Shown here one piece after another: positions 1,520 to 31,015 of a stretch of 64,000 bases of DNA. The notes beneath the pieces are model-generated. The model was not told the DNA's origin, searched no databases, and worked only from the letters and a program-made list of their open reading frames with translations. Position numbers and translations under genes: made by a program. Source of the DNA: Nocardia arizonensis (GTDB taxonomy: Bacteria; Actinomycetota; Actinomycetes; Mycobacteriales; Mycobacteriaceae). The stretch covers positions 1 to 64,000 of the forward strand of contig NZ_LGYZ01000027.1 in NCBI RefSeq assembly GCF_001310275.1. Direction: 5' to 3'. Position 1 is the first letter of the stretch; each line of letters begins with the position of its first letter.

Positions 1520-2740
1520 CTACCCGGCGTTCGCCGTCCGATCGTTGGGTACCGCCTGATCCTTGCGCTGGGAGCGCCGGTAGGCGTGGGCGATGAGCGC
1601 GCACTGGAGGTAGAACAGACCCGACTGTTTGGCGGGGTCGTAGCCGGTGAGTTCCTGAATGCGGCGCAACCGGTAGTCGACGGTGTTGCGGTGCAGGTTC
1701 AACATCCGCGCGGTGTCCTGGCGCCGGAGATTGTTCCGTATGTAGAGCAGCAGGGTCTGGAGCAGACCCGGATGCTCCTCGAGCGGATCGATGGCCGCGG
1801 CCAGCCGGTTCATCGCCGGGCCGGGGCGGGTCAGCTGGTATTCCAGTGCCAGATCACCGAATTCGTAGAGTCCGGGTTGCAGGTGCAGACGCTGCGCCAC
1901 GTCGAGCAGCTCGTGCGCGCCGTCGGCGATCTGGCGGATCTGGGTGCGCGAACCGTAGAGCACGGCGGCGGTCAGGGGCACCCGCGCGGCCCGCGACAGG
2001 TCGGCGATGAGTCCGCTGAGCGTGTCACGGGTGGCGTCGGTGGCGGGGACCAGCACGGTGCCGCCGTGCACGCCGAGCACCGACAGCGTGGACAGCCCGC
2101 GATGGTCGTTGAGGCCGCGCTGCACGCGTTCGAGCGTGGCCCGCGCCGCATCTTCCGCGCCGGGGTCGAGTGCGTCGCCGGTCCGCGGAATGGACACGGC
2201 CAGTACGGCGTAGGCATCCGCGACCGGCGCTCCGTGCGGCATGTCCTGGCCGTCGCCCGCCAGCGCCGAGGCGAGTCGGTGCAGCGGCGTGCGCAGGTGG
2301 CCAACCCGGCCGCCGACGTCCTGGATATAGGCGACCGACACGGCGGCCGTGAGTCTTTCGCGCACCTGGAGGAAGCGTTTGACCACGGTGGCCATGCGGT
2401 GCGGGTCGCGGGTCGCGGTGGAGGCCACGACCCGGTCGAATGCCTGATCACTGGCGGTGCGTACCGCCCGGTGCATGGCGTCGATCGAAACTCCCTGGCG
2501 CGACCAGGCTTTCGTGATCCGGCGGACCTGCTCGAGTTGGGCGTTGATGGCCGCCTCGGGCAGGACGGCCCGGTTGATGGTCTCGGTCAGCAGCTGCGCG
2601 CAGATGCGGGCGAGAGCCGGGTCCTCGCACCGCATCGCGTCGCCGGGGCGTGCGCCGATCTGTGCCGCGTCGGGGTGCGGGCCCGCGGTGGTCGGGCGTG
2701 CGAGGGTCATCGAATCGTTGATCTTGGCGATGGCGGACAT
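1520..2740 (-). CDS. PucR-type helix-turn-helix transcriptional activator
   Basis: A 406-residue regulator. The C-terminal ~60 residues hold the PucR-type HTH: YIRNNLRRQDTARMLNLHRN followed by TVDYRLRRIQELTG. The middle is the GGDEF-like/central domain usual in this family. It is likely a metabolite-responsive activator of neighbouring catabolic or acyl-ligase genes. The start at 2740 is favoured over an upstream ATG at 2818 because GGAG lies just before it and the extra residues look non-coding. It is transcribed away from the SRPBCC-ligase gene, with a 427-bp shared control region. A second PucR-type gene lies 4 kb downstream with a near-identical C-terminus, so the two are paralogues. Confidence 0.85.
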   Translation of the reverse strand: MSAIAKINDSMTLARPTTAGPHPDAAQIGARPGDAMRCEDPALARICAQLLTETINRAVLPEAAINAQLEQVRRITKAWSRQGVSIDAMHRAVRTASDQAFDRVVASTATRDPHRMATVVKRFLQVRERLTAAVSVAYIQDVGGRVGHLRTPLHRLASALAGDGQDMPHGAPVADAYAVLAVSIPRTGDALDPGAEDAARATLERVQRGLNDHRGLSTLSVLGVHGGTVLVPATDATRDTLSGLIADLSRAARVPLTAAVLYGSRTQIRQIADGAHELLDVAQRLHLQPGLYEFGDLALEYQLTRPGPAMNRLAAAIDPLEEHPGLLQTLLLYIRNNLRRQDTARMLNLHRNTVDYRLRRIQELTGYDPAKQSGLFYLQCALIAHAYRRSQRKDQAVPNDRTANAG

Positions 2741-3167
2741 CGGTGGTGCTCCATTCGACTCACGGATCAGCCGAGGCCAGACGGAATGGCTGTAACAATG
2801 CATCAGTATACGGTGCATCGTACATCCGGCGCATCAGATTTGGATACATTGTTGCGCATCTCGAGGTGTCCGGGGAGGTGATGGCGCGGCGAATCATGAC
2901 GCGAATGCGTCATCGCGATCACGGAGTCACCGCGCGACGGTCGGTGGCCGACGGCGCGGTCAATCATGCTGAGGTGTCCCGGATTCGCCGTCATGCCACT
3001 CGTCGGCGGCGGTGCGGACCGCACGCGGTGACCGTGCACTACCGTTGGCGGCCCCCGCCCTGTGTGCTCTCCAGCGACCGGGCGAATCCTCGAATGATCG
3101 GCGTGGCGCGGCGGTAGCGTTCGAGCCGGTCGGGTGGCAGCGGAGCCGCCCGATGGGAGTGTGGCTC
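2741..3167. other. Divergent control region between PucR and acyl-ligase genes
   Basis: 427 bp without a gene. The half nearest the PucR gene is clearly more AT-rich than the surroundings and carries the inverted promoter module annotated at 2791-2860. The remainder is ordinary GC-rich sequence in which I see no further conserved element. Confidence 0.6.
2791..2860. promoter_or_regulatory. 70-bp inverted operator/promoter module, copy 1
   Basis: Contains TGTAACAATGCATCAG at 2791-2806 and GGATACATTGTTGCGCATC at 2842-2860. The reverse complement of the second element repeats the core AACAATGYATC of the first, so the two are inverted half-modules 51 bp apart. The same pair at the same spacing occurs at 12802-12871, with the 19-bp second element identical. 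TACATT inside the second element could be a -10 for rightward transcription. A TATACT reading on the other strand could serve the PucR gene. Probable binding site of a regulator shared by the island; which regulator is inference. Confidence 0.6.
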
Positions 3168-5240
3168 ATGGTTACCGAAATATTCGAAACCACCCACGAC
3201 GTACCGGTCGGACGCCGCGCCGTGTGGGATGCCCTGGTGGACCCGCACACCTACGTGCGTCTGTTCGCCTATATCGGCGGATGCGAATTCCTGGAGAACG
3301 TCGACGGCCGCGCGGTGCTCATGTTCCGCATCGGCACCCCCGAAGCGGGCATCGCCGCGGTGTGTGTACACCTGATCACCGGGCGCCCGGAGACGAATCT
3401 CGAACTGTACTGCCCGGATCTGGGCAGTCTTGCCGCGATCCGGCTGCGCCCGCACGAGGACGGCACCCGCGTCACAGTGACGGTCTATGCCCCGGCGCGG
3501 GTGCATCCCGTCGTCGCGGCGGCGCAGAACGCCGATGTGATCGACTGGGTGCGAACCGGACTCGACAAGGTCGCGCAACGCTGCCGCGCCGCGCCGACCT
3601 CGATGCTCAGTGTCAGTGTCGGCACGCCGGTGCGCCGTCAGGTCCAGGTGGCCAGGCAGATGATCTCGACCGGCATCGTGAATCCGATTCGCCCCGACCA
3701 CGGCCTCAAACAGCTGGCGGCACTGGCGAAATGGGGACTCAGCCTCGCCGGCGGCTACGCGACCTCCGCGGCCTGCACCCCCGACCGGATCGCGGTGATC
3801 GACGCGCACGGCTCCCGCACCTTCGCCGAGATGCACCGCCGCACCGACGCGCTGGCCTGTGCGCTGAACGCGAACGGACTCGACGCGCAGGCCGCGGCCG
3901 GCGTACTCGCTCGCAATCACGGCGGGCTGATCGAGATCATGGCGGGTGCGGGCAAGGCGGGATTGGATCTCGTACTGCTCAATGCCGGACTGTCCGCGCG
4001 CCAACTCGAGGACCTCGCCCAGCGCGAGCGGCTCTCGGCGCTGTTCGTCGACGCCGAATTCGATCCGCTGGTGCGGTATCTGGCACACGGCATGCGGCGT
4101 TACGGCACCGTGGACGCGTCCGTGCCGGACCGCGAGACGATCGATGACCTGGTCGCGAGCGCACCGAAGGCGGTGCCGCGACGGCGACGCACCGGCAAGC
4201 TCGTGGTGCTCACCTCGGGTACCAGCGGGCGGCCCAAGGGCGCGCGCCGTCCTGATCCGAAGGGCCTCGATCCCGTCGCGGCGGTGCTCTCGCGCATCCC
4301 GCTGCGCATGGAGGAGACCATCCTCATCGCCTCCCCGCTGTTCCACACCTGGGGTCTGGGGATGTTGCAACTGAGCACCGCGCTGCGGGCGACGGTGGTG
4401 CTCCAGGAGCGCTTCGACGCCGAGGGGTGTCTGCGCCTGATCGCCCGACACCGGGTGCGGACGCTGGTCGTGGTGCCGACCATGGTGCAGCGCATCCTCG
4501 ATCTGCCCGACGTGGTGCGCGCCCGCTACGACCTGTCGAGCCTGGAAGTGGTCGCCTGCGGCGGCGCTCCGCTGTCGAGCACCGCCGTGTTGCGCTTCAC
4601 CGAGGTCTTCGGCGAAATCCTCTACAACGTCTACGGTTCCACCGAGGTGTCGTGGGCGACCGTCGCGACCCCGGAGGATCTGCGGACCTCACCGGGCACC
4701 GTCGGCAGACCGCCCGCGGGCACCCGGGTCGCGGTACTCGGCGCGGATCTCCGGCCGGTTCCGGTCGGGACGACCGGCCGGATCTTCGTCGGCAATCACA
4801 TGCTGTTCGACGGATACGTCAACGCGCGCCCGCCCGTCGAGTCCGACGGAATGCTCGACACCGGCGATATCGGCTATCTGGATGTAGCGGGGCGGTTGTT
4901 CATCGATGGCCGCGATGACGAGATGGTGATCTCCGGCGGCGAGAAGTTCTTCCCGCGTCCCGTGGAGGAGGCGCTGGAATATCTGCCGCAGGTGCGCGAG
5001 GCCGCGGTGGTCGGCGTCCCGGATCCCGACTTCGGGCAGCGACTGGCCGCCTTCGTGGTGAAAAGGGAAGGTACCGGCCTGGATTCGCAGATGGTGCGCG
5101 ACTACATTCGCCATCGACTCGGCCGGGTCGCGGTGCCACGTGACGTTTCGTTCCTGGCGGCCCTGCCCCGCGGCGAGACGGGCAAGATCATCAAGCGATT
5201 CCTCGTCGCGCCCGAACACGGTGCGCCGCAGACCTCCTGA
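3168..5240 (+). CDS. SRPBCC domain fused to AMP-forming acyl-CoA ligase
   Basis: A 690-residue two-domain protein. Residues ~1-150 form an SRPBCC/START-like hydrophobic-ligand domain (VPVGRRAVWDALVDPHTY, then RVHP near its end). From ~residue 185 it is an ANL-superfamily acyl ligase: P-loop TSGTSGRPKG at ~349-358, YGSTE, LDTGDIGYLD, the GRDDEMVISGGEK hinge motif and catalytic Lys673 in ETGKIIK. It should activate a carboxylic acid with ATP, then pass it to CoA or a carrier, perhaps with the N-terminal pocket presenting the hydrophobic substrate. The start follows GGGAG by 8 nt. Such a fusion is unusual, and a second copy lies at 8880. Substrate unknown. Confidence 0.85.
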   Translation: MVTEIFETTHDVPVGRRAVWDALVDPHTYVRLFAYIGGCEFLENVDGRAVLMFRIGTPEAGIAAVCVHLITGRPETNLELYCPDLGSLAAIRLRPHEDGTRVTVTVYAPARVHPVVAAAQNADVIDWVRTGLDKVAQRCRAAPTSMLSVSVGTPVRRQVQVARQMISTGIVNPIRPDHGLKQLAALAKWGLSLAGGYATSAACTPDRIAVIDAHGSRTFAEMHRRTDALACALNANGLDAQAAAGVLARNHGGLIEIMAGAGKAGLDLVLLNAGLSARQLEDLAQRERLSALFVDAEFDPLVRYLAHGMRRYGTVDASVPDRETIDDLVASAPKAVPRRRRTGKLVVLTSGTSGRPKGARRPDPKGLDPVAAVLSRIPLRMEETILIASPLFHTWGLGMLQLSTALRATVVLQERFDAEGCLRLIARHRVRTLVVVPTMVQRILDLPDVVRARYDLSSLEVVACGGAPLSSTAVLRFTEVFGEILYNVYGSTEVSWATVATPEDLRTSPGTVGRPPAGTRVAVLGADLRPVPVGTTGRIFVGNHMLFDGYVNARPPVESDGMLDTGDIGYLDVAGRLFIDGRDDEMVISGGEKFFPRPVEEALEYLPQVREAAVVGVPDPDFGQRLAAFVVKREGTGLDSQMVRDYIRHRLGRVAVPRDVSFLAALPRGETGKIIKRFLVAPEHGAPQTS

Positions 5241-5261
5241 CGGGGGCGCTCCGCGCCCCCG
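5241..5261. terminator. Bidirectional hairpin between convergent genes
   Basis: A perfect 9-bp stem (CGGGGGCGC / GCGCCCCCG) with a 3-nt loop begins at the base after the ligase stop codon and sits 9 bp before the convergent monooxygenase stop. It has no U tract, as is common in actinomycetes. It could serve both genes. Confidence 0.75.
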
Positions 5262-5270
5262 TGGCCGGTC

Positions 5271-6824
5271 TCAGTGTTCGCCGTCGCCCGCGACCGTCGC
5301 CGGTGCGGCCACCGGGTTCTCGACCCGTGGGCCGGGGGCGGGCGCGGTGCGGTAGAGGGTGGGATCGAGCCTGCGGGTGCGGCGGCGGTAGCTGCGCATG
5401 GATTCGGGCCAGTTGTTGGTGTTGGCCGGGCCGCGCGCGGTTCGGGCGATGTACCAGCTGTTGCAGCCGCCGGTGCTCCACACCGTGGTCGCCAGCTGAT
5501 CCTGCACCTTCGCGTCGAACCGGTCGAGCACCTCGGGCCGCAGGTCGAGATACCCACCGCGGTGGCGCATCTGGTCGAGCGCGTCGATGATGTAATTCAT
5601 CTGGCTCTCGAGCATGTGCACGATGGACCCGGAGCCGACATTGGTATTCGGCCCGTACATGAGGAAGAGATTCGGGAAGCCGGGCACCGAGAGTCCCAGG
5701 TAGGCGCGCGGGCGACGATCCCAGGCGGTCACCAGATCGGTTCCGTCGAGTCCGATCACCCGCATGGGCGCGACGAAATCGTGCGAGCGGAATCCGGTCG
5801 CCAGGATGATCGTGTCCACCGGATGCGAGCGGCCGTCCTCGGTGATCAGCGCACCGTCCTCGATACGGGTCACGGCGTCGGTGACCACGTGGGTATCGTC
5901 CCGGTTGAGGGTCTGGTAGTAGTCGTTCGAGGTCAGGATGCGGTTGCACCCGATTTCGTAATCCGGCGTGAGTCGCGCCCGCAGTCGCGGTTCGGCGACC
6001 TTGCGCAGATTCCACCGGCACCACAGCCGGATCGGGAACGACAGCAGCTTGCGACCGTAGCGCGATACCAGCATGGGATTGAGAACCATCTCGAACCACA
6101 CGAACACCCCGGCGCGAGGGAGCTTGTGCAGCAGAGGGATTCGGAGATTGAGCCGCCGTCGCAGCCGCGGGTACTCGTGATCGGGCTTTGGGCTGATCCA
6201 GTGCGCCTGGCGCTGGAATATGGTCAGCGACCGCGCGCGCTCGGCCACATGCGGCACGAACTGGATCGCGCTGGCGCCGTTGCCGATCACCGCGACCGCG
6301 CGCCCGGTCAGATCGTGGTCGTGATCCCATCGCGCGGAATGGAACATGACGCCGGAGAACTCGTGCAGTCCCGGAATCGGCGGATACGACGGCACCGAGA
6401 GTTGACCGCAGGCGGTCACGAGCACGTCGGCGGTGAACACCGCGCCGCCGCGATCGGTCAGTACCCAATGCCGCTGATCCGCATCGTATTCGGCCGTGAC
6501 GATTTCGGTGTCGAACCTGATCTGCGACAGCAGACCGTAGTGTTCGGCGCATTCGCGCAGATAGGCCAGGATCTCCGGCTGTTCGGCGAAGCGACGCGAC
6601 CAATCCGGCTTGGGGTGGAACGAGTACGAGTACAGATGCGACGGGGCATCGCACGCGGCGCCCGGATAGGTGTTGTCGCGCCAGACGCCGCCCACGTCGT
6701 CGCGCTTCTCGTAGATCCGCAGGTTGTCGTATCCGGCTCGAACGAGTCGGATCGCCAGACCCAGTCCACTGAATCCGCTGCCGATAATGGCGATCGACGG
6801 CTGTGTGCCGTTGTTGTTGCCCAC
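5271..6824 (-). CDS. Flavin-dependent (Baeyer-Villiger-type) monooxygenase
   Basis: A 517-residue class B flavin monooxygenase. An N-terminal FAD fold with GSGFSGLG near residues 15-22, the Baeyer-Villiger fingerprint FSGVMFHSARWD, and a second Rossmann motif GNGASA for NADPH are all visible, plus ATGFRS before the C-terminal part. Expected reaction: NADPH- and O2-dependent insertion of oxygen next to a ketone, or N/S-oxidation. A GTG six bases upstream is also possible, but AGGAG spaces better from 6824. It follows a PucR-type gene on the same strand (105-bp gap), which probably controls it. It converges on the SRPBCC-ligase, suggesting a joint ketone-to-ester-to-acid route, which is inference. 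Confidence 0.88.
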   Translation of the reverse strand: MGNNNGTQPSIAIIGSGFSGLGLAIRLVRAGYDNLRIYEKRDDVGGVWRDNTYPGAACDAPSHLYSYSFHPKPDWSRRFAEQPEILAYLRECAEHYGLLSQIRFDTEIVTAEYDADQRHWVLTDRGGAVFTADVLVTACGQLSVPSYPPIPGLHEFSGVMFHSARWDHDHDLTGRAVAVIGNGASAIQFVPHVAERARSLTIFQRQAHWISPKPDHEYPRLRRRLNLRIPLLHKLPRAGVFVWFEMVLNPMLVSRYGRKLLSFPIRLWCRWNLRKVAEPRLRARLTPDYEIGCNRILTSNDYYQTLNRDDTHVVTDAVTRIEDGALITEDGRSHPVDTIILATGFRSHDFVAPMRVIGLDGTDLVTAWDRRPRAYLGLSVPGFPNLFLMYGPNTNVGSGSIVHMLESQMNYIIDALDQMRHRGGYLDLRPEVLDRFDAKVQDQLATTVWSTGGCNSWYIARTARGPANTNNWPESMRSYRRRTRRLDPTLYRTAPAPGPRVENPVAAPATVAGDGEH

Positions 6825-6929
6825 TTCCACTCCTGTTGTGGCTGTCCCGCGTCGGTGCGGGAGTACGGTCTCCGCGCGTGCGAGGACGGACCCGGCGTTC
6901 GCGACGACGGGCCCGTGCGCGGGGACGTT

Positions 6930-7841
6930 CTATTCGGTGTCGGAGCTCCGGTAGGTCTGCGCCACCAGGGCCGACTGGAGGTACCACAGGCCATTGGGCC
7001 GATACGGGTCCAAGCCGGTGAGTTCCTTGACCCGGCGCAGCCGGTAATCGACGGTATTGCTGTGGATGTTGAGCGTTCGCGCGGTGCGCTGCCGGTTGAG
7101 ATCGCTGTCGAGATAGCTGCGCAGCGTCTCGATCAGGTCGGGATGCGGTCGGATCGGGTCGAGCAGCGAATGCAGGTAATCGGTGATGTGATCGCGGCGG
7201 GTGGCCTGGTACTCCAGCGCCAGATCGCCGAGTCGGTACAGTGCGGGCTCGTAGCGCAGCCGCTGCACGACGTCGAGCAGTTCGTGCGCGAGATCGGTGG
7301 CGTGCGGTATGCCCAGGAAGGTGGCCGAGACCGCGGTGACGGTGACCGGCGCGCCCGCGGCCCGCGCCAGCTGTGCGACGAGGTCCCGCGGTATCCGGTC
7401 GCCGGATTCGCCCTCGGGAATGAGTACCGTGCCGCCGGTACCGCTGAGCAGCGGCAGCGCGCTGTTGTCGCAGAGCGTGCCGAGCGCGATCTCGACGCGG
7501 ATCCGGCGTTCGTCGGCCAGTGCCGCCGCGGTCGACTCGGGCACCGTGCGCGGGCTGTTCGCCGTGATGGCCACCGCGAGGACCGAATAGTATTCCGCGA
7601 TGGCGATACCGGCCGAGCGCGCGACCGCCGCCGGATTCATGCCGTCGATGAGCATCGAGCTCAGCGTGCGCGCCGCACCCTCGGGTTCGCCGAGCGCCGT
7701 GCGTAATTGGTGGACGTGCGCCGCGACATTGGCTGCCAGAGGCGACTGGCCGCCCGCGCGAGCAGCCATGTGCCGTATCCCCGAGGCGGGGGCGCGAGTG
7801 GCCGACGTCATGGCGTCGGGCGAGAACGCTTCACTTCGCAA
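6930..7841 (-). CDS. PucR-type helix-turn-helix regulator, short form
   Basis: A 303-residue regulator with the same central and HTH domains as the gene at 1520-2740 but a much shorter N-terminus. The HTH segment NRQRTARTLNIHSNTVDYRL followed by RRVKELTGLDPYR is near the C-terminus. A TTG start at 7841 has AGGGG 6 nt upstream; an in-frame ATG at 7811 is the alternative and has no clear ribosome site. It lies upstream of and co-directional with the Baeyer-Villiger-type gene, and divergent from a TetR gene 201 bp away. Probable local activator of the monooxygenase; the inducer is unknown. Confidence 0.85.
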   Translation of the reverse strand: MRSEAFSPDAMTSATRAPASGIRHMAARAGGQSPLAANVAAHVHQLRTALGEPEGAARTLSSMLIDGMNPAAVARSAGIAIAEYYSVLAVAITANSPRTVPESTAAALADERRIRVEIALGTLCDNSALPLLSGTGGTVLIPEGESGDRIPRDLVAQLARAAGAPVTVTAVSATFLGIPHATDLAHELLDVVQRLRYEPALYRLGDLALEYQATRRDHITDYLHSLLDPIRPHPDLIETLRSYLDSDLNRQRTARTLNIHSNTVDYRLRRVKELTGLDPYRPNGLWYLQSALVAQTYRSSDTE

Positions 7842-7934
7842 GGTAGGCCCCTGTCCTGTGCGTGCCGACTGCGTCCGAAGGGCGATTGGCTCCGAATGCG
7901 GATTACCTCCGAATGCGGATTACCATAGCGTTGA

Positions 7935-7967
7935 TGTAACAGAGCATCAATAGCCGGTTCACTGTTG
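7935..7967 (+). promoter_or_regulatory. Partial copy of the shared island operator
   Basis: TGTAACAGAGCATCAATAGC and the following CGGTTCACTGTTG match the first half of the module at 12802 at most positions over about 33 nt. No copy of the 19-bp second element is found 51 bp downstream. It lies between the divergent PucR and TetR genes, 41 bp upstream of the TetR -35 box. Confidence 0.5.
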
Positions 7968-8007
7968 TGAGCTAGTCGGGAGAGTCTTCCGGCAGGTCGA
8001 TCCCTCT

Positions 8008-8042
8008 TTGACGCAATGAAACAATCTCGGTATCTTCGATGC
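8008..8042 (+). promoter_or_regulatory. Leaderless promoter of TetR gene
   Basis: TTGACG at 8008-8013 and TATCTT at 8031-8036 are separated by exactly 17 nt, and the ATG follows the -10 by 6 nt. Transcription should start at or next to the ATG, giving a leaderless mRNA. No ribosome-binding site is present, which supports this reading. Confidence 0.7.
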
Positions 8043-8741
8043 ATGGCCAGGGCTCGTGACGAACTCGATGAGAAGATCATGGATGCGGCCCTGGACCGAA
8101 TCCTCCAGGTCGGTATTCGCCGCAGCAGTCTGGACGACATCGCGCGCCGTTCCGGCGTCAATCGTGTCACCATCTACCGCCGCTTCGCGGGGAAACAGAA
8201 CCTCATCGAAGCGGTGCTCGAACGCGAGACCGAACGCATGCTGACCGAGGTCACCGAGATCGTCACCCGGACCGCGAGCGCCGAGGCCCAGATCGAGGAG
8301 ACGGCGCTCTACGTCCTGCGCCGCACCCGGCTGCACGTCCTGGTCGCCCAACTGCTCGCGGTCGCGCCGGAGGAAGTGCTGACCTTCTTCACGGTGCGCG
8401 GCAGCGAGGTCGTCGCCACCGGCATCGATTTCATCGTCGGATTGCTGCGTCGGGCGCAGGAACTGGGTCTCATCGCCGCCTACGATCCCGTGCCCGTCGC
8501 GGAAATCATTGCCCGCCTGGCTCATTCGGTCATGCTGACACCGCAGGCCGGTGTCGACTTCGCCGACGAGGAGGCCGTGCGGCAGTTTCTGCGCGTGTCG
8601 ATCGTCCCCATGGTCGAATACGGTATCGGCCCGCCTCCGGCCACGACGCCGAATCGCCCCAAGGGAACCTCTCGTTCGGGGTCCCGGGCCGCGCGCGGAC
8701 GTCGTGGCGCGCAGACCCGCACCGCCGCCGGGTCGGCCTAG
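8043..8741 (+). CDS. TetR family regulator, paralogue 1 of 3
   Basis: A 232-residue regulator. N-terminal HTH: ILQVGIRRSSLDDIARRSGV then RVTIYRRFAGKQN. The rest is an all-helical ligand domain ending in a basic, low-complexity tail rich in Arg, Ser and Gly. It is strongly similar to the proteins encoded at 15300 and 27246, sharing the HTH wording, a TxFTVRG-type segment, and LTP.AGVDF near the end. The start at 8043 is set by the leaderless promoter. Its position between PucR/monooxygenase and the second SRPBCC-ligase suggests it represses that ligase or itself. Ligand unknown; a hydrophobic acyl compound would fit the setting. Confidence 0.87.
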   Translation: MARARDELDEKIMDAALDRILQVGIRRSSLDDIARRSGVNRVTIYRRFAGKQNLIEAVLERETERMLTEVTEIVTRTASAEAQIEETALYVLRRTRLHVLVAQLLAVAPEEVLTFFTVRGSEVVATGIDFIVGLLRRAQELGLIAAYDPVPVAEIIARLAHSVMLTPQAGVDFADEEAVRQFLRVSIVPMVEYGIGPPPATTPNRPKGTSRSGSRAARGRRGAQTRTAAGSA

Positions 8742-8879
8742 CCGCCACGTCCCGCACGTGGGACGATATCCGACCTCCCGCTCGAATGCGCTGTGCATCA
8801 TCCAATCTCGTGCCGCACTCGGTACGGGTGGTCCGCCCCCCGATATGTAATGGCGCACCGGGTGCGAGGGAGTGGTCCT

Positions 8880-10964
8880 ATGATTTCGGAAATCATCGAG
8901 GTCGTCGAGGAGTATCTGATTCCCCGGCACCTGATATGGGACGTGCTGGTCGATCCGCAGATGTATCCCAGGCTGTTCCGCGGCGTCGGCGCGTGCATGC
9001 AGGTGGGGCTCGTGGACGGCCATCCGATGCTGGACTTCCTGGTGGGCACGCCGTCGATCGGAATCGGATCGCTGCGAACGCATCTGACCATCGCGCGCAA
9101 ATACGAAGCCTTCGACCTGCAATGTACGGATTCGGGAAGTCTGGTCTCGGTGCGCATCCGCGCCGACGGCGCCCGCACCAAGGTCGTGATCACCGTACTC
9201 GGCGCGGGCCGCGTGCACCCGTCCATCCAGCGGGCAGGCACCGGCGCGGTGCGGGGCTGGGTGCGCGAGGGTATGGAGCAGGTCGCGTCCTTGCTCTGGT
9301 GGGAGCCGACTTCGATCTCGACCGGTGACCGGCACGCCCGCGGTCCCCGACTACGCCCGATGCTCGCGCGTTACGTCGCCCGGTCACGCCCGGACATCGT
9401 GTTGCGCCAGTGGTTCGGGCTGTGCCGCGGCAGATTCGACGTGACCGCGAGCTACGCCGGACCCGCCGGACACGCGCCGCGCTACGTCGCGGCGATCGAT
9501 GATTTCGGCAGTGTCGCCTATGCCGAACTGCACCAGCGCATCCAGTTGCTCGCCGGCGCGCTGGCGGATCTGGGAATCGAACGAAGCGGCGCGGTGGCGC
9601 TATTGGCGCGCAACCACATCGAGGCGGTGCAGGTCATCGGGGCGGTCGCCGCACTCGGAGCCGATCTGGTGCTCCTGAACTCGGGGATGTCGCCCGAGCA
9701 TATCGCGGGCGTCGTCGCCCTGACCGGGGTCACGGTCCTGTTCGTCGATGGCGAACTCGAGATGATGGCCCGCGCGGTGGACCCGCGGATCACATTGTGC
9801 AGCACCGACGGCCGGTCGCTGTTCCCCGCGTGGCCGACGGTCGAGGCGCTCGTGCAGTCCGGCAGGCGCCGCCGCCGACGGCGCGCCGCGCATGCCGGCC
9901 GGGTGATCGTCTCGACCGCGGGCACCGCGGGATCGCCGCGCGCGGTGTGGGTTCCGCAGAGGCGGACCGCCCGGGGCTTCGAGGATCTGCTCTCGCGCGT
10001 GCCGCTGCGCGTCGACGAGGTGATGCTGCTCGCGGCCCCGCTCTCGCACGGGTGGGGGCTGGCCGCATTCCAAACCGCGGTCGCCCTCCGTGCGCGCGTG
10101 GTGCTCACCGACGACTTCGAGCCGGAGGACTGCCTGTGGTTGATCGCCACCCACCGGGTCGGTGTCCTGGTGGTGGTGCCGTCCATGGTGGCGCGATTGC
10201 TCGAACTCCCGCTGCCGGTGCTCACCCGCTACGACCTGTCCTGCCTGCGGGAGGTGCTCAGCTGCGGCGGCCCGCTGCCCGCCGAATCGGTTCAGCGGTT
10301 CGGCGACGTCTTCGGCGACATTCTCTACAACGTCTACGGCAGCGTCGAATCCGCGTGGATCTCGATCGCCGATCCGCGGGATCTGCGCGTGGCGCCCGGT
10401 ACCGTCGGGCGGCCGCCGACCGGCACCGAGGTGGCGATACTCGGTCCTGACCTGCGGCCGGTGCCGATCGGGGCGGTGGGGCGGATCTTCGTGCGCAGCC
10501 GCATGATGTTCGGCGGTTATCTCGACGCCGAGGAGCCGCAGTCGGTGGTCGGCATGCTCGACACCGGCGATGTCGGTTATCTCGACGTCGCGGGTCGGCT
10601 GTTCGTGGCGGGCCGCGCCGCGGACTCGGTCGTCACCTCCGGCAAACGGGTGATGATCCGCCCGGTGGAGGAGGCGCTCGAGGCACTGCCGCAGGTGCGC
10701 GAGGCGGCGGTGATCGGGGTCACCGACACCGATCGCGGACAGCGGCTGGCCGCCTTCGTGGTGCCGTCGGAGGGTTCGGCGCTTGATTCGGACACCGTAC
10801 GCGGATACCTGCGCGATCGACTCGGCACACTGTCGGTGCCGCAGGAGGTGCACTTCCGAGATACGCTGCCGCGCAGCGATATCGGCACCGTACTCAAACA
10901 TCTGCTCGGCGGCGCGGTGCCGCGGCCGGGACCGGGCGACGGCATACCCCAGGAGATCCGGTGA
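8880..10964 (+). CDS. SRPBCC-acyl-ligase fusion with degenerate ligase motifs
   Basis: A 694-residue paralogue of the protein at 3168 with the same two-domain layout (SRPBCC to ~150, ligase fold from ~190). Key ligase positions differ. The P-loop reads TAGTAGSPRA instead of TSGTSGRPKG, YGSTE is YGSVE, the hinge GRDDE is GRAAD, and the catalytic Lys of motif A10 is Thr670 (DIGTVLK). LDTGDVGYLD is kept. The fold therefore looks conserved while adenylation is probably lost or altered, suggesting an acyl-binding or regulatory pseudoenzyme. The start follows GGGAG by 7 nt. The reading frame is intact with normal codon use, so it is not simply decaying. Confidence 0.85.
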   Translation: MISEIIEVVEEYLIPRHLIWDVLVDPQMYPRLFRGVGACMQVGLVDGHPMLDFLVGTPSIGIGSLRTHLTIARKYEAFDLQCTDSGSLVSVRIRADGARTKVVITVLGAGRVHPSIQRAGTGAVRGWVREGMEQVASLLWWEPTSISTGDRHARGPRLRPMLARYVARSRPDIVLRQWFGLCRGRFDVTASYAGPAGHAPRYVAAIDDFGSVAYAELHQRIQLLAGALADLGIERSGAVALLARNHIEAVQVIGAVAALGADLVLLNSGMSPEHIAGVVALTGVTVLFVDGELEMMARAVDPRITLCSTDGRSLFPAWPTVEALVQSGRRRRRRRAAHAGRVIVSTAGTAGSPRAVWVPQRRTARGFEDLLSRVPLRVDEVMLLAAPLSHGWGLAAFQTAVALRARVVLTDDFEPEDCLWLIATHRVGVLVVVPSMVARLLELPLPVLTRYDLSCLREVLSCGGPLPAESVQRFGDVFGDILYNVYGSVESAWISIADPRDLRVAPGTVGRPPTGTEVAILGPDLRPVPIGAVGRIFVRSRMMFGGYLDAEEPQSVVGMLDTGDVGYLDVAGRLFVAGRAADSVVTSGKRVMIRPVEEALEALPQVREAAVIGVTDTDRGQRLAAFVVPSEGSALDSDTVRGYLRDRLGTLSVPQEVHFRDTLPRSDIGTVLKHLLGGAVPRPGPGDGIPQEIR

Positions 10965-15299: not shown

Positions 15300-15947
15300 T
15301 CAACGGGGGCGGGTGGGGGGAGTGCAGTTCCCGCCGGGGGTATTCCGCGGCTTGTGCGGTCCGAGTCCGTGCTTCACCAACGGGACGATCGCTGTGCGTA
15401 TGAACAATCGCATGCGTTCGGAATCGGTGAAATCGACACCGCCGCTCGGCGTCAAGAGCAATGAATGCGCCAGCCGGGCGATCAGTTCGGCGACCGGTCG
15501 TGGATCGTATCGATCGATGAGCCCGAGTTCCTGGGCGTGACACAACATTCCGGCGATGTAGTCGATGCCGAGGGTCACGCGCTGTTGACCCCGCACGGTG
15601 AAGTAGGTCAGCGATTCCTCGGGCACCACGTGCAGCAATTGGGTCACCAGACGGTGCATCCGCGTCTGATCCAGCACGTGCAGCATGGTCTTCTCGATCT
15701 GCTCGTCGACATCGTGCGTGGTGGTGGCGATGGCGGTGGCCTCGGCGAGCATGCGCCTGGTCTCGCGCACCAGCAGCGCCTCGATCAGACCCTCCTTCGC
15801 GGAGAACCGGTCGTGCAGACTCGGCCGGTCGATTCCACTGTCGCGGGCGATGTCGTCCATCGAGCTCTGCCGAATACCGACGCGAAGAAACCGCTCCAGA
15901 GCGGCATCGAGAATTGCGTCCTCGGGTCCGTCGAATCCGGCGGTCAT
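15300..15947 (-). CDS. TetR family regulator, paralogue 2 of 3
   Basis: A 215-residue regulator whose HTH (RVGIRQSSMDDIARDSGIDR) and C-terminal ligand domain (TYFTVRG, LLLTPSGGVDF) match the proteins at 8043 and 27246, with clearly more divergence in the recognition helix (PSLHDRF instead of VTIYRRF). The start at 15947 is fixed by a consensus leaderless promoter; an upstream ATG at 15998 would place that promoter inside the gene. It converges on tatA and is the nearest regulator to the Tat flavoenzyme, so it is a candidate controller of the 12802 module. Confidence 0.87.
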   Translation of the reverse strand: MTAGFDGPEDAILDAALERFLRVGIRQSSMDDIARDSGIDRPSLHDRFSAKEGLIEALLVRETRRMLAEATAIATTTHDVDEQIEKTMLHVLDQTRMHRLVTQLLHVVPEESLTYFTVRGQQRVTLGIDYIAGMLCHAQELGLIDRYDPRPVAELIARLAHSLLLTPSGGVDFTDSERMRLFIRTAIVPLVKHGLGPHKPRNTPGGNCTPPTRPR

Positions 15948-15953
15948 GAATCG

Positions 15954-15982
15954 AACATACGAATCCGTTCTCAGCGTGTCAA
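15954..15982 (-). promoter_or_regulatory. Consensus leaderless promoter of TetR paralogue 2
   Basis: On the minus strand TTGACA (15982-15977) and TATGTT (15959-15954) are 17 nt apart, with the ATG 6 nt after the -10. The arrangement is the same as at the paralogue starting at 8043. Confidence 0.75.
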
Positions 15983-15991
15983 CAACGGCGT

Positions 15992-16006
15992 GGGACACAG
16001 TGTCCC
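15992..16006. promoter_or_regulatory. Palindromic operator GGGACACAGTGTCCC
   Basis: A 15-bp perfect palindrome around one central base, 10 bp upstream of the TetR -35 box. Its position fits autoregulation by the TetR protein it precedes. Confidence 0.5.
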
Positions 16007-27245: not shown

Positions 27246-27896
27246 ATGGCGCGGGCATACGACGAGCTCGATGAGCAAATTCTCGACGCGGCACTCACCC
27301 GTATTCTCCAGGTCGGGATTCGCCGGGCCAGTCTCGACGACATCGCTCGGCGCACGGGGATCAATCGCGTGACGATCTATCGCCGTTTCGCGGGCAAGGA
27401 CAATGTCGTCGACGCGGTTCTCTCGCGCGAGATCGAACGCATCCTCGGCGAGGTCACCGCGATCACCAGATCCGCGCCGGATGTCGACACTCAGATCGAG
27501 GAGACGGTCCTCTACATCCTGCGGTTGACCCGCACCCATCCGCTGGTGGTCCAGCTCATCGAGGTGGCGCCGGATGAGGCGCTGTCGTTCTACACCGTGC
27601 GCGGCGAAGAGATGGTTTCCCAAGGCATCGCCTATATCTCCGGCATATTGGAGTCGGCTCAGCAGCGCGGCGCGATCCGTCGGTACGACACCCGTCCGGT
27701 GGCGGAGTTGGTTGCCCGGCTGGCGCATTCGCTGTTGCTCACGCCGCAGGCCGGTGTCGACTTCGCCGACGCCGATGCCGCGCGCGCCTTCGTTCGGACC
27801 ACGATCGTGCCGATGATGAAATACGGTTTCCCCGCCGCCGCGGGCGGTGCGGGGGACTCCGATGTCTCGAGAGCTGACACCGCCGCCGGTGCTTGA
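27246..27896 (+). CDS. TetR family regulator, paralogue 3 of 3
   Basis: A 216-residue regulator very close to the protein at 8043: MARAYDELDEQILDAALTRI, ILQVGIRRASLDDIARRTGI, RVTIYRRFAGKDN, FYTVRG and LLLTPQAGVDF correspond almost residue for residue. It lacks the basic C-terminal tail of that protein. Nearly identical recognition helices predict overlapping DNA targets. No obvious target gene lies beside it, since the upstream operon is separated by 344 bp and the downstream gene is convergent, so it may act in trans on the 3-15 kb island. Confidence 0.87.
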   Translation: MARAYDELDEQILDAALTRILQVGIRRASLDDIARRTGINRVTIYRRFAGKDNVVDAVLSREIERILGEVTAITRSAPDVDTQIEETVLYILRLTRTHPLVVQLIEVAPDEALSFYTVRGEEMVSQGIAYISGILESAQQRGAIRRYDTRPVAELVARLAHSLLLTPQAGVDFADADAARAFVRTTIVPMMKYGFPAAAGGAGDSDVSRADTAAGA

Positions 27897-29356: not shown

Positions 29357-29866
29357 TCAGTGTGCGGCGGTGGCGAATCGGGTGTCGGTGTAACGGCGAA
29401 GGTTCGCCAGGAACCGCTTGAACATGAAGTTCATGATCGGGGCGGACGCGAAGGAGAACAGTTTCGCGGGTCCGCGCAGACGATTGGCCAGCGTCCAGGT
29501 GAGACGGCAGCCGTCCGGTGTCGGCTCGATCCGGTAGTCCTCCAGGAATGCCTCGAGCGCGGCGGTCGAACACGCCTCGAAACGAAATGCCATGTGCTTA
29601 CCGGGCTCCCAGGCCAGGAAGCGTTCCTCGCCGACGATGCCACCGCGCATGTCGACCGTGCGGGTGGTGCCGATGCCGTGCGGTCGCGGACTGGTCCAGG
29701 TCACGTTGGTGATCACGGTGGCCCAGCGCGGCCAGGGTTCGGCCTCGGCCAGAACGTCGAACGCCTGCTCGGGGGTGATCGCGAGATCGACGCTGTTGCT
29801 GAAGCGTCCGGGCGCGGTGTCGAGGAAATCCAATTCGACGGGCTCGCAGGGGTGCATGGTGGTCAC
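29357..29866 (-). CDS. SRPBCC (polyketide cyclase/dehydrase-like) protein
   Basis: A 169-residue single SRPBCC domain: an early VDLAITPEQAFDVLAEAEPW segment and a C-terminal helix (FMFKRFLANLRRYTDTRF) that normally caps a hydrophobic pocket. It lies 21 bp after the alcohol dehydrogenase gene on the same strand, so the two are co-transcribed. It may carry or shield the hydrophobic substrate of that enzyme. A GTG at 29866 with GAGGA upstream is preferred over the ATG three codons in. Family members include cyclases, carriers and stress proteins, so the exact job is open. Confidence 0.8.
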   Translation of the reverse strand: MTTMHPCEPVELDFLDTAPGRFSNSVDLAITPEQAFDVLAEAEPWPRWATVITNVTWTSPRPHGIGTTRTVDMRGGIVGEERFLAWEPGKHMAFRFEACSTAALEAFLEDYRIEPTPDGCRLTWTLANRLRGPAKLFSFASAPIMNFMFKRFLANLRRYTDTRFATAAH

Positions 29867-29887: not shown

Positions 29888-31015
29888 TCAGCGGTCGTCG
29901 TCGGTGAAGCGGATGACGCCGCGAATGTTCTTGCCCTCGAGCATGTCCTGGTAGCCGTCGTTGATCTGGTCCAGTCGGTACTGCCGGGTGACCATGTCAT
30001 CGAGGTTGAGTTTGCCCGCCTTGTACATCGCCAGCAGTTGCGGAATGTCGTAGTGCGGGTTGCCGCCGCCGAACAGGGTGCCCTGCAACCGTTTCTGCAA
30101 CAGCGACAGCATCGCGATATTGAGGGTGGTCTCGTTTTCCACGAGGTTGCCCATCGCGGTGACCACACAGGTGCCCGCCTTGGCGGTGATGCCGAGCCAG
30201 GTGTCGACGTCCTTGCCGCGGGCCTCGCCGACGGTGACGATGACCTTCTTGGCCATACCGCCCGCGGTGATCTCCGCGCACGCCGCGGTCGCCTCCTCGA
30301 TGGTGGCGTAGGCGTGCGTGGCGCCGAATTTCAACGCCTGCTCGCGCTTCCAGTCCACGGGGTCGACGGCGAAGATGTAGCGCGCTCCGCAGTGCACCGC
30401 GCCCTGGAGCGCGGCGGTGCCGAGTCCGCCTATGCCGATGATCGCGACATCCTCGCCCGGGCGGATGTCCGCGGCGCGGGTGGCCGAACCGTATCCGGTG
30501 GTGACACCGCAGCCGACCAGGCAGGCGACCTCGAATGGCACCGACGGGTCGATCTTGACCACCGATGCCTGATGCACCACCGCGTACGGGGCGAAGGTGC
30601 CGAGCAGGGTCATGGGGTAGACGTCGCGGCCGCGCGCGGTGACGCGGTGCGTTCCGTCGGTGACCGAGGTGCCCGCCAGCAGCAGCGCGCCCAGATCGCA
30701 CAGATTGCGCAGACCCGCCTGACACGAGGGACATTTGCCGCAGGACGGGATGAACGACAGCACGACGTGGTCGCCGACCGCGAGATCCTCCACATCCGGT
30801 CCGACCTCGATGATGACACCCGCGCCCTCGTGCCCGCCCAGCACCGGGAACCCCGCCATCGGAATGCCGCCGGTGACGAGGTGGTGGTCCGAGTGGCACA
30901 TGCCCGCCGCCTCCATCCGCACGGTGACCTCGTGGCGGCGCGGTTGGCCGATCTCGATCTCCTCGACCGTCCAAGGCTGGTTGAATTCCCAGATCAGGGC
31001 GCCCTTTGTCTTCAT
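29888..31015 (-). CDS. NDMA-dependent-type zinc alcohol dehydrogenase
   Basis: A 375-residue medium-chain zinc dehydrogenase. Catalytic zinc ligands lie in GMCHSDHHLVTGG and GGHEGAG, structural zinc is held by the CGKCPSCQ..C cluster, and the nucleotide fold carries GIGGLGTAALQGA. The wording matches the actinobacterial family using tightly bound NAD and mycofactocin as electron acceptor (NDMA-dependent in vitro). Substrate is probably a primary or secondary alcohol. No mycofactocin biosynthesis genes are in the window. A divergent TetR gene 98 bp upstream is its likely repressor. Confidence 0.87.
   Translation of the reverse strand: MKTKGALIWEFNQPWTVEEIEIGQPRRHEVTVRMEAAGMCHSDHHLVTGGIPMAGFPVLGGHEGAGVIIEVGPDVEDLAVGDHVVLSFIPSCGKCPSCQAGLRNLCDLGALLLAGTSVTDGTHRVTARGRDVYPMTLLGTFAPYAVVHQASVVKIDPSVPFEVACLVGCGVTTGYGSATRAADIRPGEDVAIIGIGGLGTAALQGAVHCGARYIFAVDPVDWKREQALKFGATHAYATIEEATAACAEITAGGMAKKVIVTVGEARGKDVDTWLGITAKAGTCVVTAMGNLVENETTLNIAMLSLLQKRLQGTLFGGGNPHYDIPQLLAMYKAGKLNLDDMVTRQYRLDQINDGYQDMLEGKNIRGVIRFTDDDR

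Follow-up and report, generated by a model that had tools for sequence, protein, structure and literature searches.

Two neighboring SRPBCC–acyl ligase fusions in Nocardia arizonensis, one of them probably a pseudoenzyme

The window analyzed here, a 64,000-nucleotide stretch of contig 27 (NZ_LGYZ01000027.1) in the 7.2-Mb genome of Nocardia arizonensis, encodes two large proteins, designated P1 and P2, in both of which some 160 N-terminal residues form a domain that is followed by AMP-binding and then by AMP-binding_C. The two proteins are 45% identical in an alignment over their full length, and both ligase domains score far above the Pfam cut-offs in each of them; P2 reaches 183.1 bits for AMP-binding (cut-off 29.9) and 65.1 bits for AMP-binding_C (cut-off 24.5), and thus retains the ANL fold. 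The N-terminal domain is assigned to the SRPBCC (polyketide cyclase-like) group through the members of the family, since, of 19 family N-termini, 17 match Polyketide_cyc2 at E ≤ 1 (best 1.4e-7) and 11 match Polyketide_cyc, while the N-terminus of P2 by itself gives no Pfam match at E ≤ 1. The architecture put forward in the original prediction, an SRPBCC pocket fused to an AMP-ligase fold in both proteins, is therefore borne out, by Pfam for the ligase domains and by way of the family N-termini for SRPBCC. A profile search of the PDB with the N-terminal domain returned nothing significant, the top match being the cyclase 3tfz at E 0.055. The AlphaFold models of P1 and P2, built from three-row alignments, were unusable (predicted local distance difference test score, pLDDT, of 36.3 and 39.9), so that all residue correspondences were placed by sequence alignment only. 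Apart from P1 and P2, the profile of the N-terminal domain finds one more place in the host genome, a third copy on contig 50 that is 60% identical to P1 and near-universal in the genus.

In the catalytic motifs, P1 reads TSGTSGRPKG at the phosphate-binding loop (P-loop), YGSTE, GRDDE at the hinge, and GK673, and so carries the motif set of ANL acyl-CoA ligases (P-loop Lys, YGxTE, TGD, GR-x-D hinge, and A10 Lys), whereas P2 reads TAGTAGSPRA, YGSVE, GRAAD, and GT670, departing from the set of an active ligase by Arg354, Val for the Thr of YGxTE, Ala581, and Thr670 (A5, A8, and A10 being what we take to be the names of these motifs). The complete adenylation motifs of P1 including Lys673, and the altered P-loop, YGSVE, GRAAD hinge, and Thr670 of P2 on an intact frame, had all been claimed from the DNA letters, and each was found as described. 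The changes in the P2 motifs are not due to chance, because among 196 alignment columns that are invariant at ≥97% in 58 family rows outside P2, one of these rows being P1 of the window, 63 deviate in P2 and none in P1; the P1 proteins of two other genomes, G124 and G116, deviate at 2 columns each. Broken down by region, P2 deviates at 3 of the 16 such columns of the SRPBCC domain, 42 of the 126 of the main ligase part, and 18 of the 54 of the C-terminal part. According to an excerpt of a study on FadD13 (PMC2793005), the K487A substitution lowers activity by 96.3% and K172A raises the Km for ATP about tenfold, and we equated K487 and K172 with the A10 and P-loop lysines, respectively, by alignment. 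We infer that P2 itself is inactive.

The family to which both proteins belong is widespread in the genus, and the P2 type is rare. An SRPBCC–ligase N-terminus occurs in 143 of 148 Nocardia genomes (E ≤ 1e-10), whereas 4 of 150 have a P2-like one at E ≤ 1e-43, namely the genome of the window, N. bovistercoris NEAU-351 (G062), G124, and G116. In the taxonomic family at large, where up to 8 candidates per genome were scored, 59 of 401 genomes, from 3 of the 31 genera, gave a match at 1e-15, and the matches outside the genus are 30–35% identical. Two plasmid records match P2 at E ≤ 1e-60, neither covering 80% of P2 in one place. The motifs were read in 185 copies (183, together with L099 and L100, both intact), a large sample outside which at least six further listed copies lie. 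In the 183 copies, the A10 position is occupied by Lys in 175, by Thr in 3 (all of the P2 clade), and by Arg in the frameshifted L199, and it is absent from 4, namely P2 of G124 and the copies L143, L160, and L200 truncated by contig ends. In the same copies, the four P2 proteins have another residue in place of the hinge Asp, which L199 and L200 lack altogether. At the P-loop Lys, three P2 proteins and L199 carry Arg, and L179 has a deletion; the neighboring Pro356 is less fixed, differing in 4 otherwise intact copies. Thus, among the 185 copies read, replacement of the A10 lysine or the hinge on an unbroken frame is confined to the P2 lineage, all other exceptions stemming from a frameshift (one copy), an internal deletion (one), or a cut at a contig end (three). 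Ordinary broken copies exist as well, in that L108 has an in-frame stop, L199 a change of frame, and L179 an in-frame deletion; in the last, a member of the P1 clade on contig 134 of G048, the main ligase part is deleted in frame, and the SRPBCC domain is joined to the C-terminal part in a protein of 287 residues. Sequence-identical rows were left out of the alignment set, L091 was left out of the first tree and the domain comparison, and five duplicates were left out of both of these and of the motif census.

The four P2 proteins form one clade with support of 100/100 (from a tree without outgroups and with 17 rows thinned), and the grouping of P1 with P2, at 89/94, is not decisive. All four P2 frames are open, at 600–694 residues, and the clade displays catalytic loss at different stages. 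In P2 of G116, the P-loop is intact (TSGTGGPPKG), but Thr stands at both the A10 and the hinge positions; in P2 of the window and of N. bovistercoris, the P-loop lysine is lost as well as the A10 and hinge residues; and P2 of G124 lacks residues of the P-loop as well as the C-terminal domain, of which no trace was found downstream of the gene. The losses look stepwise, and the simplest order would be the A10 and hinge residues first, then the P-loop, and finally the domain.

The P2 proteins of the window and of N. bovistercoris have their losses in common, and hence presumably diverged after them. For this pair, the ratio of nonsynonymous to synonymous substitution rates (dN/dS) is roughly 0.072 overall, 0.050 in the SRPBCC domain, 0.069 in the main ligase part, and 0.058 in the C-terminal part, and dN/dS = 1 is rejected with twice the log-likelihood difference (2Δ lnL) being 434.7; other P2 pairs give 0.087–0.127 overall. 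Since control pairs lie close by (0.083 and 0.063 for P1, 0.044–0.066 for the universal copy), P2 appears slightly more relaxed than the active copies. Neutral simulation started from P2 of the window yielded on average 6.4, 9.6, and 12.5 stops at three divergences, with 0 of 200 runs free of stops at each. The distribution of changes is uneven. Between the window and G124, P2 differs at 49 of 157 positions in the SRPBCC domain and 148 of 442 in the ligase part, compared with 52 of 161 and 85 of 527, respectively, for P1, and this excess in the ligase part of P2 is significant (odds ratio (OR) 1.85, p = 0.011), as it is between the window and G116 (OR 1.71, p = 0.0071) and, for the window and G124, against the universal copy (OR 1.98, p = 0.0087); in the control comparison of the universal copy with P1, no shift to the ligase part is found (OR 1.07, p = 0.79). 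The additional change of P2 thus seems to have accumulated mainly in the ligase part, and the SRPBCC domain is most likely still under ordinary constraint.

Catalytic residues replaced on intact frames, purifying selection on copies that share the losses, and the excess of change in the ligase part together lead us to regard P2 as a pseudoenzyme, that is, an otherwise conserved and selected protein whose catalytic residues are lost. At a probability of roughly 0.55, we consider that P2 is a diverged copy, probably unable to make acyl-adenylate efficiently, which is kept for a noncatalytic function. Several observations weigh against this reading. The structure models, at pLDDT 36 and 40, reveal neither the deep pocket of a helix-grip fold, as expected of SRPBCC, nor any interface. 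The synonymous divergence is saturated (dS 1.7–4 over whole genes and unbounded in two regional fits), which makes the dN/dS values rough and therefore leaves the rejection of neutrality as the sole firm result. For the window and N. bovistercoris, the domain test against the universal copy is not significant (OR 1.69, p = 0.094), the SRPBCC domain has changed faster than that of the universal copy (43 of 159 versus 27 of 162 positions), and the C-terminal ligase part is still constrained, which would not be predicted if P2 were purely an SRPBCC carrier. In addition, N. bovistercoris possesses P2 without a gene of the P1 clade, its one other family copy being outside that clade, and the loss of the C-terminal domain in G124 could mark the start of ordinary decay.

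A catalytically impaired paralogue acting as a regulatory or substrate-handing partner of the active P1 had been suggested initially. The pseudoenzyme part of this suggestion is upheld by the lineage-specific loss of motifs, the purifying selection, and the occurrence of the losses in at least two species, and the part that makes P1 the partner is weak. The co-occurrence of the pair across genomes, for which a check had been proposed, is partial, P2 being present in 3 of the 7 genomes with sampled P1-clade copies (one of these copies, in G048, itself lacking the main ligase part) and once without P1. An obligate P1–P2 pair is for these reasons unlikely. Frequent absence of P2 from relatives, which had been named beforehand as an outcome speaking against the idea, is largely what was observed as regards such an obligate pair; it does not refute a noncatalytic protein that acts by itself, together with the regulators, or in concert with the near-universal third copy carried by all four P2 genomes.

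As to how a noncatalytic P2 might work, we speculate that its SRPBCC pocket binds a hydrophobic acyl ligand and that its ligase fold serves as a scaffold contacting an active SRPBCC–ligase, which may be P1, the near-universal third copy, or both, by analogy to prozymes; alternatively, P2 may pass information on the ligand to the TetR and PucR regulators encoded alongside. Judging from the context, a catabolic cluster built around a monooxygenase might supply the substrate, perhaps a branched or isoprenoid-like keto-acid. The leading mechanism would be activation in the manner of a prozyme or the handling of substrate. Its fuller form, in which the ligase half of P2 is a docking scaffold and the SRPBCC pocket delivers an acyl substrate to, or withholds it from, an active ligase in trans, with successive stages of loss preserved in the four genomes, is proposed here tentatively.

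P2 is worth comparing with several known systems. The top NCBIfam models for the ligase parts of both proteins are acyl-CoA ligases of the FadD2/FadD12 type, members of the ANL superfamily with the same order of AMP-binding and AMP-binding_C; however, P1 and P2 score 473.3 and 361.8 bits, respectively, far under the cut-off of 850, both have an SRPBCC-type domain added at the N-terminus, and P2 is without the catalytic residues. The family of the N-terminal domain is that of the SRPBCC/START-like lipid-binding proteins (Polyketide_cyc2), here fused to a ligase. In trypanosomatids, excerpts of two papers describe prozymes (the S-adenosylmethionine decarboxylase (AdoMetDC) prozyme and a dead paralogue of deoxyhypusine synthase (DHS)) that activate their active paralogue as a heteromer (PMC5201418, PMC3663545). 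The likeness lies in a dead paralogue kept beside an active one, whereas the enzyme classes and organisms are different, an interaction of P2 is hypothetical, and P2 occurs once without P1. An inactive adenylation domain in the albicidin nonribosomal peptide synthetase is described, in an excerpt of PMC8949500, as having its activity supplied in trans; such domains are modules of an assembly line, whereas P2 is a free-standing SRPBCC fusion. Neither an SRPBCC–ligase fusion nor a dead stand-alone acyl-CoA ligase of such a kind was found in the open literature of PMC, in titles and the beginnings of abstracts among the matches listed. If our reading is correct, P2 represents a bacterial acyl-CoA ligase that has turned noncatalytic, with the order of losses readable in four genomes, three of which also have an intact paralogue close by. 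Biochemical assays and gene deletions could then test the step from enzyme to noncatalytic protein directly, and attention would also be drawn to the SRPBCC–ligase fusion carried by most of the Nocardia genomes searched.

The genes around P1 and P2 are listed in Table 1. The order in the window (PucR, P1, FMO-like monooxygenase, PucR, TetR, and P2) is identical in G124, whereas in G116 P1, the monooxygenase, TetR, PucR, and P2 are all present in a different order. In G132 and G039, P1 is accompanied by the monooxygenase (two frames in G039) and PucR, and in G107 P1 is present with no monooxygenase match within the 20 kb taken. The monooxygenase has as its top NCBIfam match, far under the cut-off, a Baeyer-Villiger-type synthase, the members of which we presume to be Baeyer-Villiger enzymes. 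The neighbors of P2 in N. bovistercoris are an SDR, a DAP_DH_C protein, a frame without a Pfam match, and a Hen1/Pnkp RNA-repair pair, and no gene of the cluster was found within about 10 kb.

Table 1 Features of the P1–P2 region (positions in the window)
Feature	Position	Strand	Remarks
PucR-type regulator (HTH_30)	1520..2818	-	divergent from P1
P1, SRPBCC–acyl-CoA ligase fusion	3168..5240	+	690 aa; catalytic motifs intact; open frame, Pfam, alignment
P1 phosphate-binding loop LTSGTSGRPKGARR	4209..4250	+	Lys357
P1 A10 lysine codon	5184..5186	+	Lys673
FMO-like flavin monooxygenase, called Baeyer-Villiger monooxygenase (BVMO)	5271..6830	-	found close to P1 in 5 of the 6 P1-clade genomes examined
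PucR-type regulator (HTH_30)	6930..7841	-	divergent from TetR gene
Candidate regulatory site TTGATG-N8-CATCAA	7931..7950		in PucR/TetR spacer; kept in G124
TetR-family regulator	8016..8741	+	138 bp upstream of P2, same strand; precedes P2 in G124 also
P2, SRPBCC–acyl ligase, probable pseudoenzyme	8880..10964	+	694 aa; ATG at 8880; unbroken frame
P2 N-terminal SRPBCC (polyketide cyclase-like) domain	8880..9359	+	13 of 16 family-invariant residues kept
P2 degenerate P-loop STAGTAGSPRAVWV	9912..9953	+	Arg354; Lys in active copies
P2 hinge position	10620..10622	+	Ala581 (GRAAD); Asp in active copies
P2 A10 lysine position	10887..10889	+	Thr670

This arrangement bears on the possibility that P2 is a ligand-sensing co-regulator working with the adjacent TetR, and with the divergent PucR, independently of P1. 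The closely spaced TetR–P2 pair, whose order is kept in G124 and which has a counterpart in a TetR-like fragment before P2 of G116, agrees with this view, as do the two opposite-strand genes lying between P1 and P2 and the near-palindrome preceding the pair, which recurs in G124, a genome whose PucR/P1 spacer also has a weaker copy with 3 mismatches (L048:10771-10788 and 5843-5860). However, P2 of N. bovistercoris has no TetR directly before it, one being found about 4.7 kb downstream; the G116 fragment, at a contig end, is 28–29% like the TetRs of the window; and the site occurs once in the window and in neither L049 (G116) nor L062 at up to 3 mismatches. We consider a P1-independent co-regulator unlikely, and the near-palindrome offers no more than a first hint of shared regulation. 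The PucR/TetR spacer (7842-8015) also contains three direct copies of a 25-nucleotide unit at 17-nucleotide spacing, not seen in the spacer of G124; repeats were searched for inside each of five spacers separately, and the sole sequences found to be shared between spacers are three 10-base words (each with its complement) of a size attributable to chance.

It is rather improbable that P2 is a redundant duplicate decaying toward a pseudogene, its open frames being recent luck. The clade is rare, other family copies also break, P2 of G124 is already reduced, and P2 evolves faster than its paralogues, with a tree path of 0.52 compared with 0.18 for the universal copy of the same two genomes (both paths being from an earlier tree with a faulty outgroup, a wrong 1111-residue frame from L013). 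On the other hand, dN/dS is far below 1 in pairs with shared losses and near that of the active paralogues, no neutral run stayed free of stops, open frames persist in four separate genomes, and the SRPBCC domain evolves at about the rate of that of P1 in the comparisons with G124 and G116.

The lysine content of P2 bears on whether another residue might have replaced the A10 lysine. P2 of the window contains 4 lysines in 694 residues, and among the 180 copies with 590 residues or more, the lowest lysine counts are those of the four P2 proteins (1–5, compared with a median of 11); lysine-poor frames are not rare among the 55 frames counted in the window and L062. The ligase part has two lysines in P2 of the window, Lys589 and Lys673 (the latter corresponding to the conserved Lys676 of P1), and one in P2 of G124, so that few candidates for a migrated catalytic lysine exist. 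Lys589, arising by the change of GGE to SGK, is a new lysine common to the window and N. bovistercoris; it probably did not take over first, because P2 of G116 has lost the A10 lysine yet keeps Glu at the 592 position. An enzyme of altered chemistry, using a migrated lysine or catalyzing the second half-reaction alone from supplied acyl-AMP, would accord with the 120 of 180 invariant ligase residues that remain, the constrained C-terminal part, the shared Lys589, and the possible use of migrated residues by pseudoenzymes noted in an excerpt of a review (PMC10211241), but is quite improbable given this scarcity of lysines, the order of events in G116, and the joint alteration of the hinge Asp, P-loop, and GGE.

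The gene neighborhood suggests the oxidative breakdown of a hydrophobic compound, which may be isoprenoid-like. Oxygenase-type proteins of PF09995 (MPAB/latex-clearing-like) accompany P1 and the monooxygenase in the clusters of G116, G132, and G039 (L049, L095, and L097). A role in rubber degradation was considered and dropped, these proteins being distant from a solved rubber oxygenase (E 8.8e-9) and the cluster of the window having none. The P1 cluster of G132 also contains a short frame of the SRPBCC–ligase family that consists of the SRPBCC domain alone (L095:1271-1870), which was rejected as a reduced P2 and taken as a separate event because it is closer to non-P2 copies (up to 44% identity) than to P2 (31–32%). 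The window encodes three related TetR-family regulators within 20 kb, the one preceding P2 and those at 15300-15998 and 27246-27896, and relatives of the second and third are adjacent to each other in G124. Finally, a zinc alcohol dehydrogenase at 29888-31015 of the window is 87% identical to that at L062:20562-21689, which lies 8.5 kb from P2 of N. bovistercoris, and is followed in the window by a Polyketide_cyc2 protein (29357-29866).

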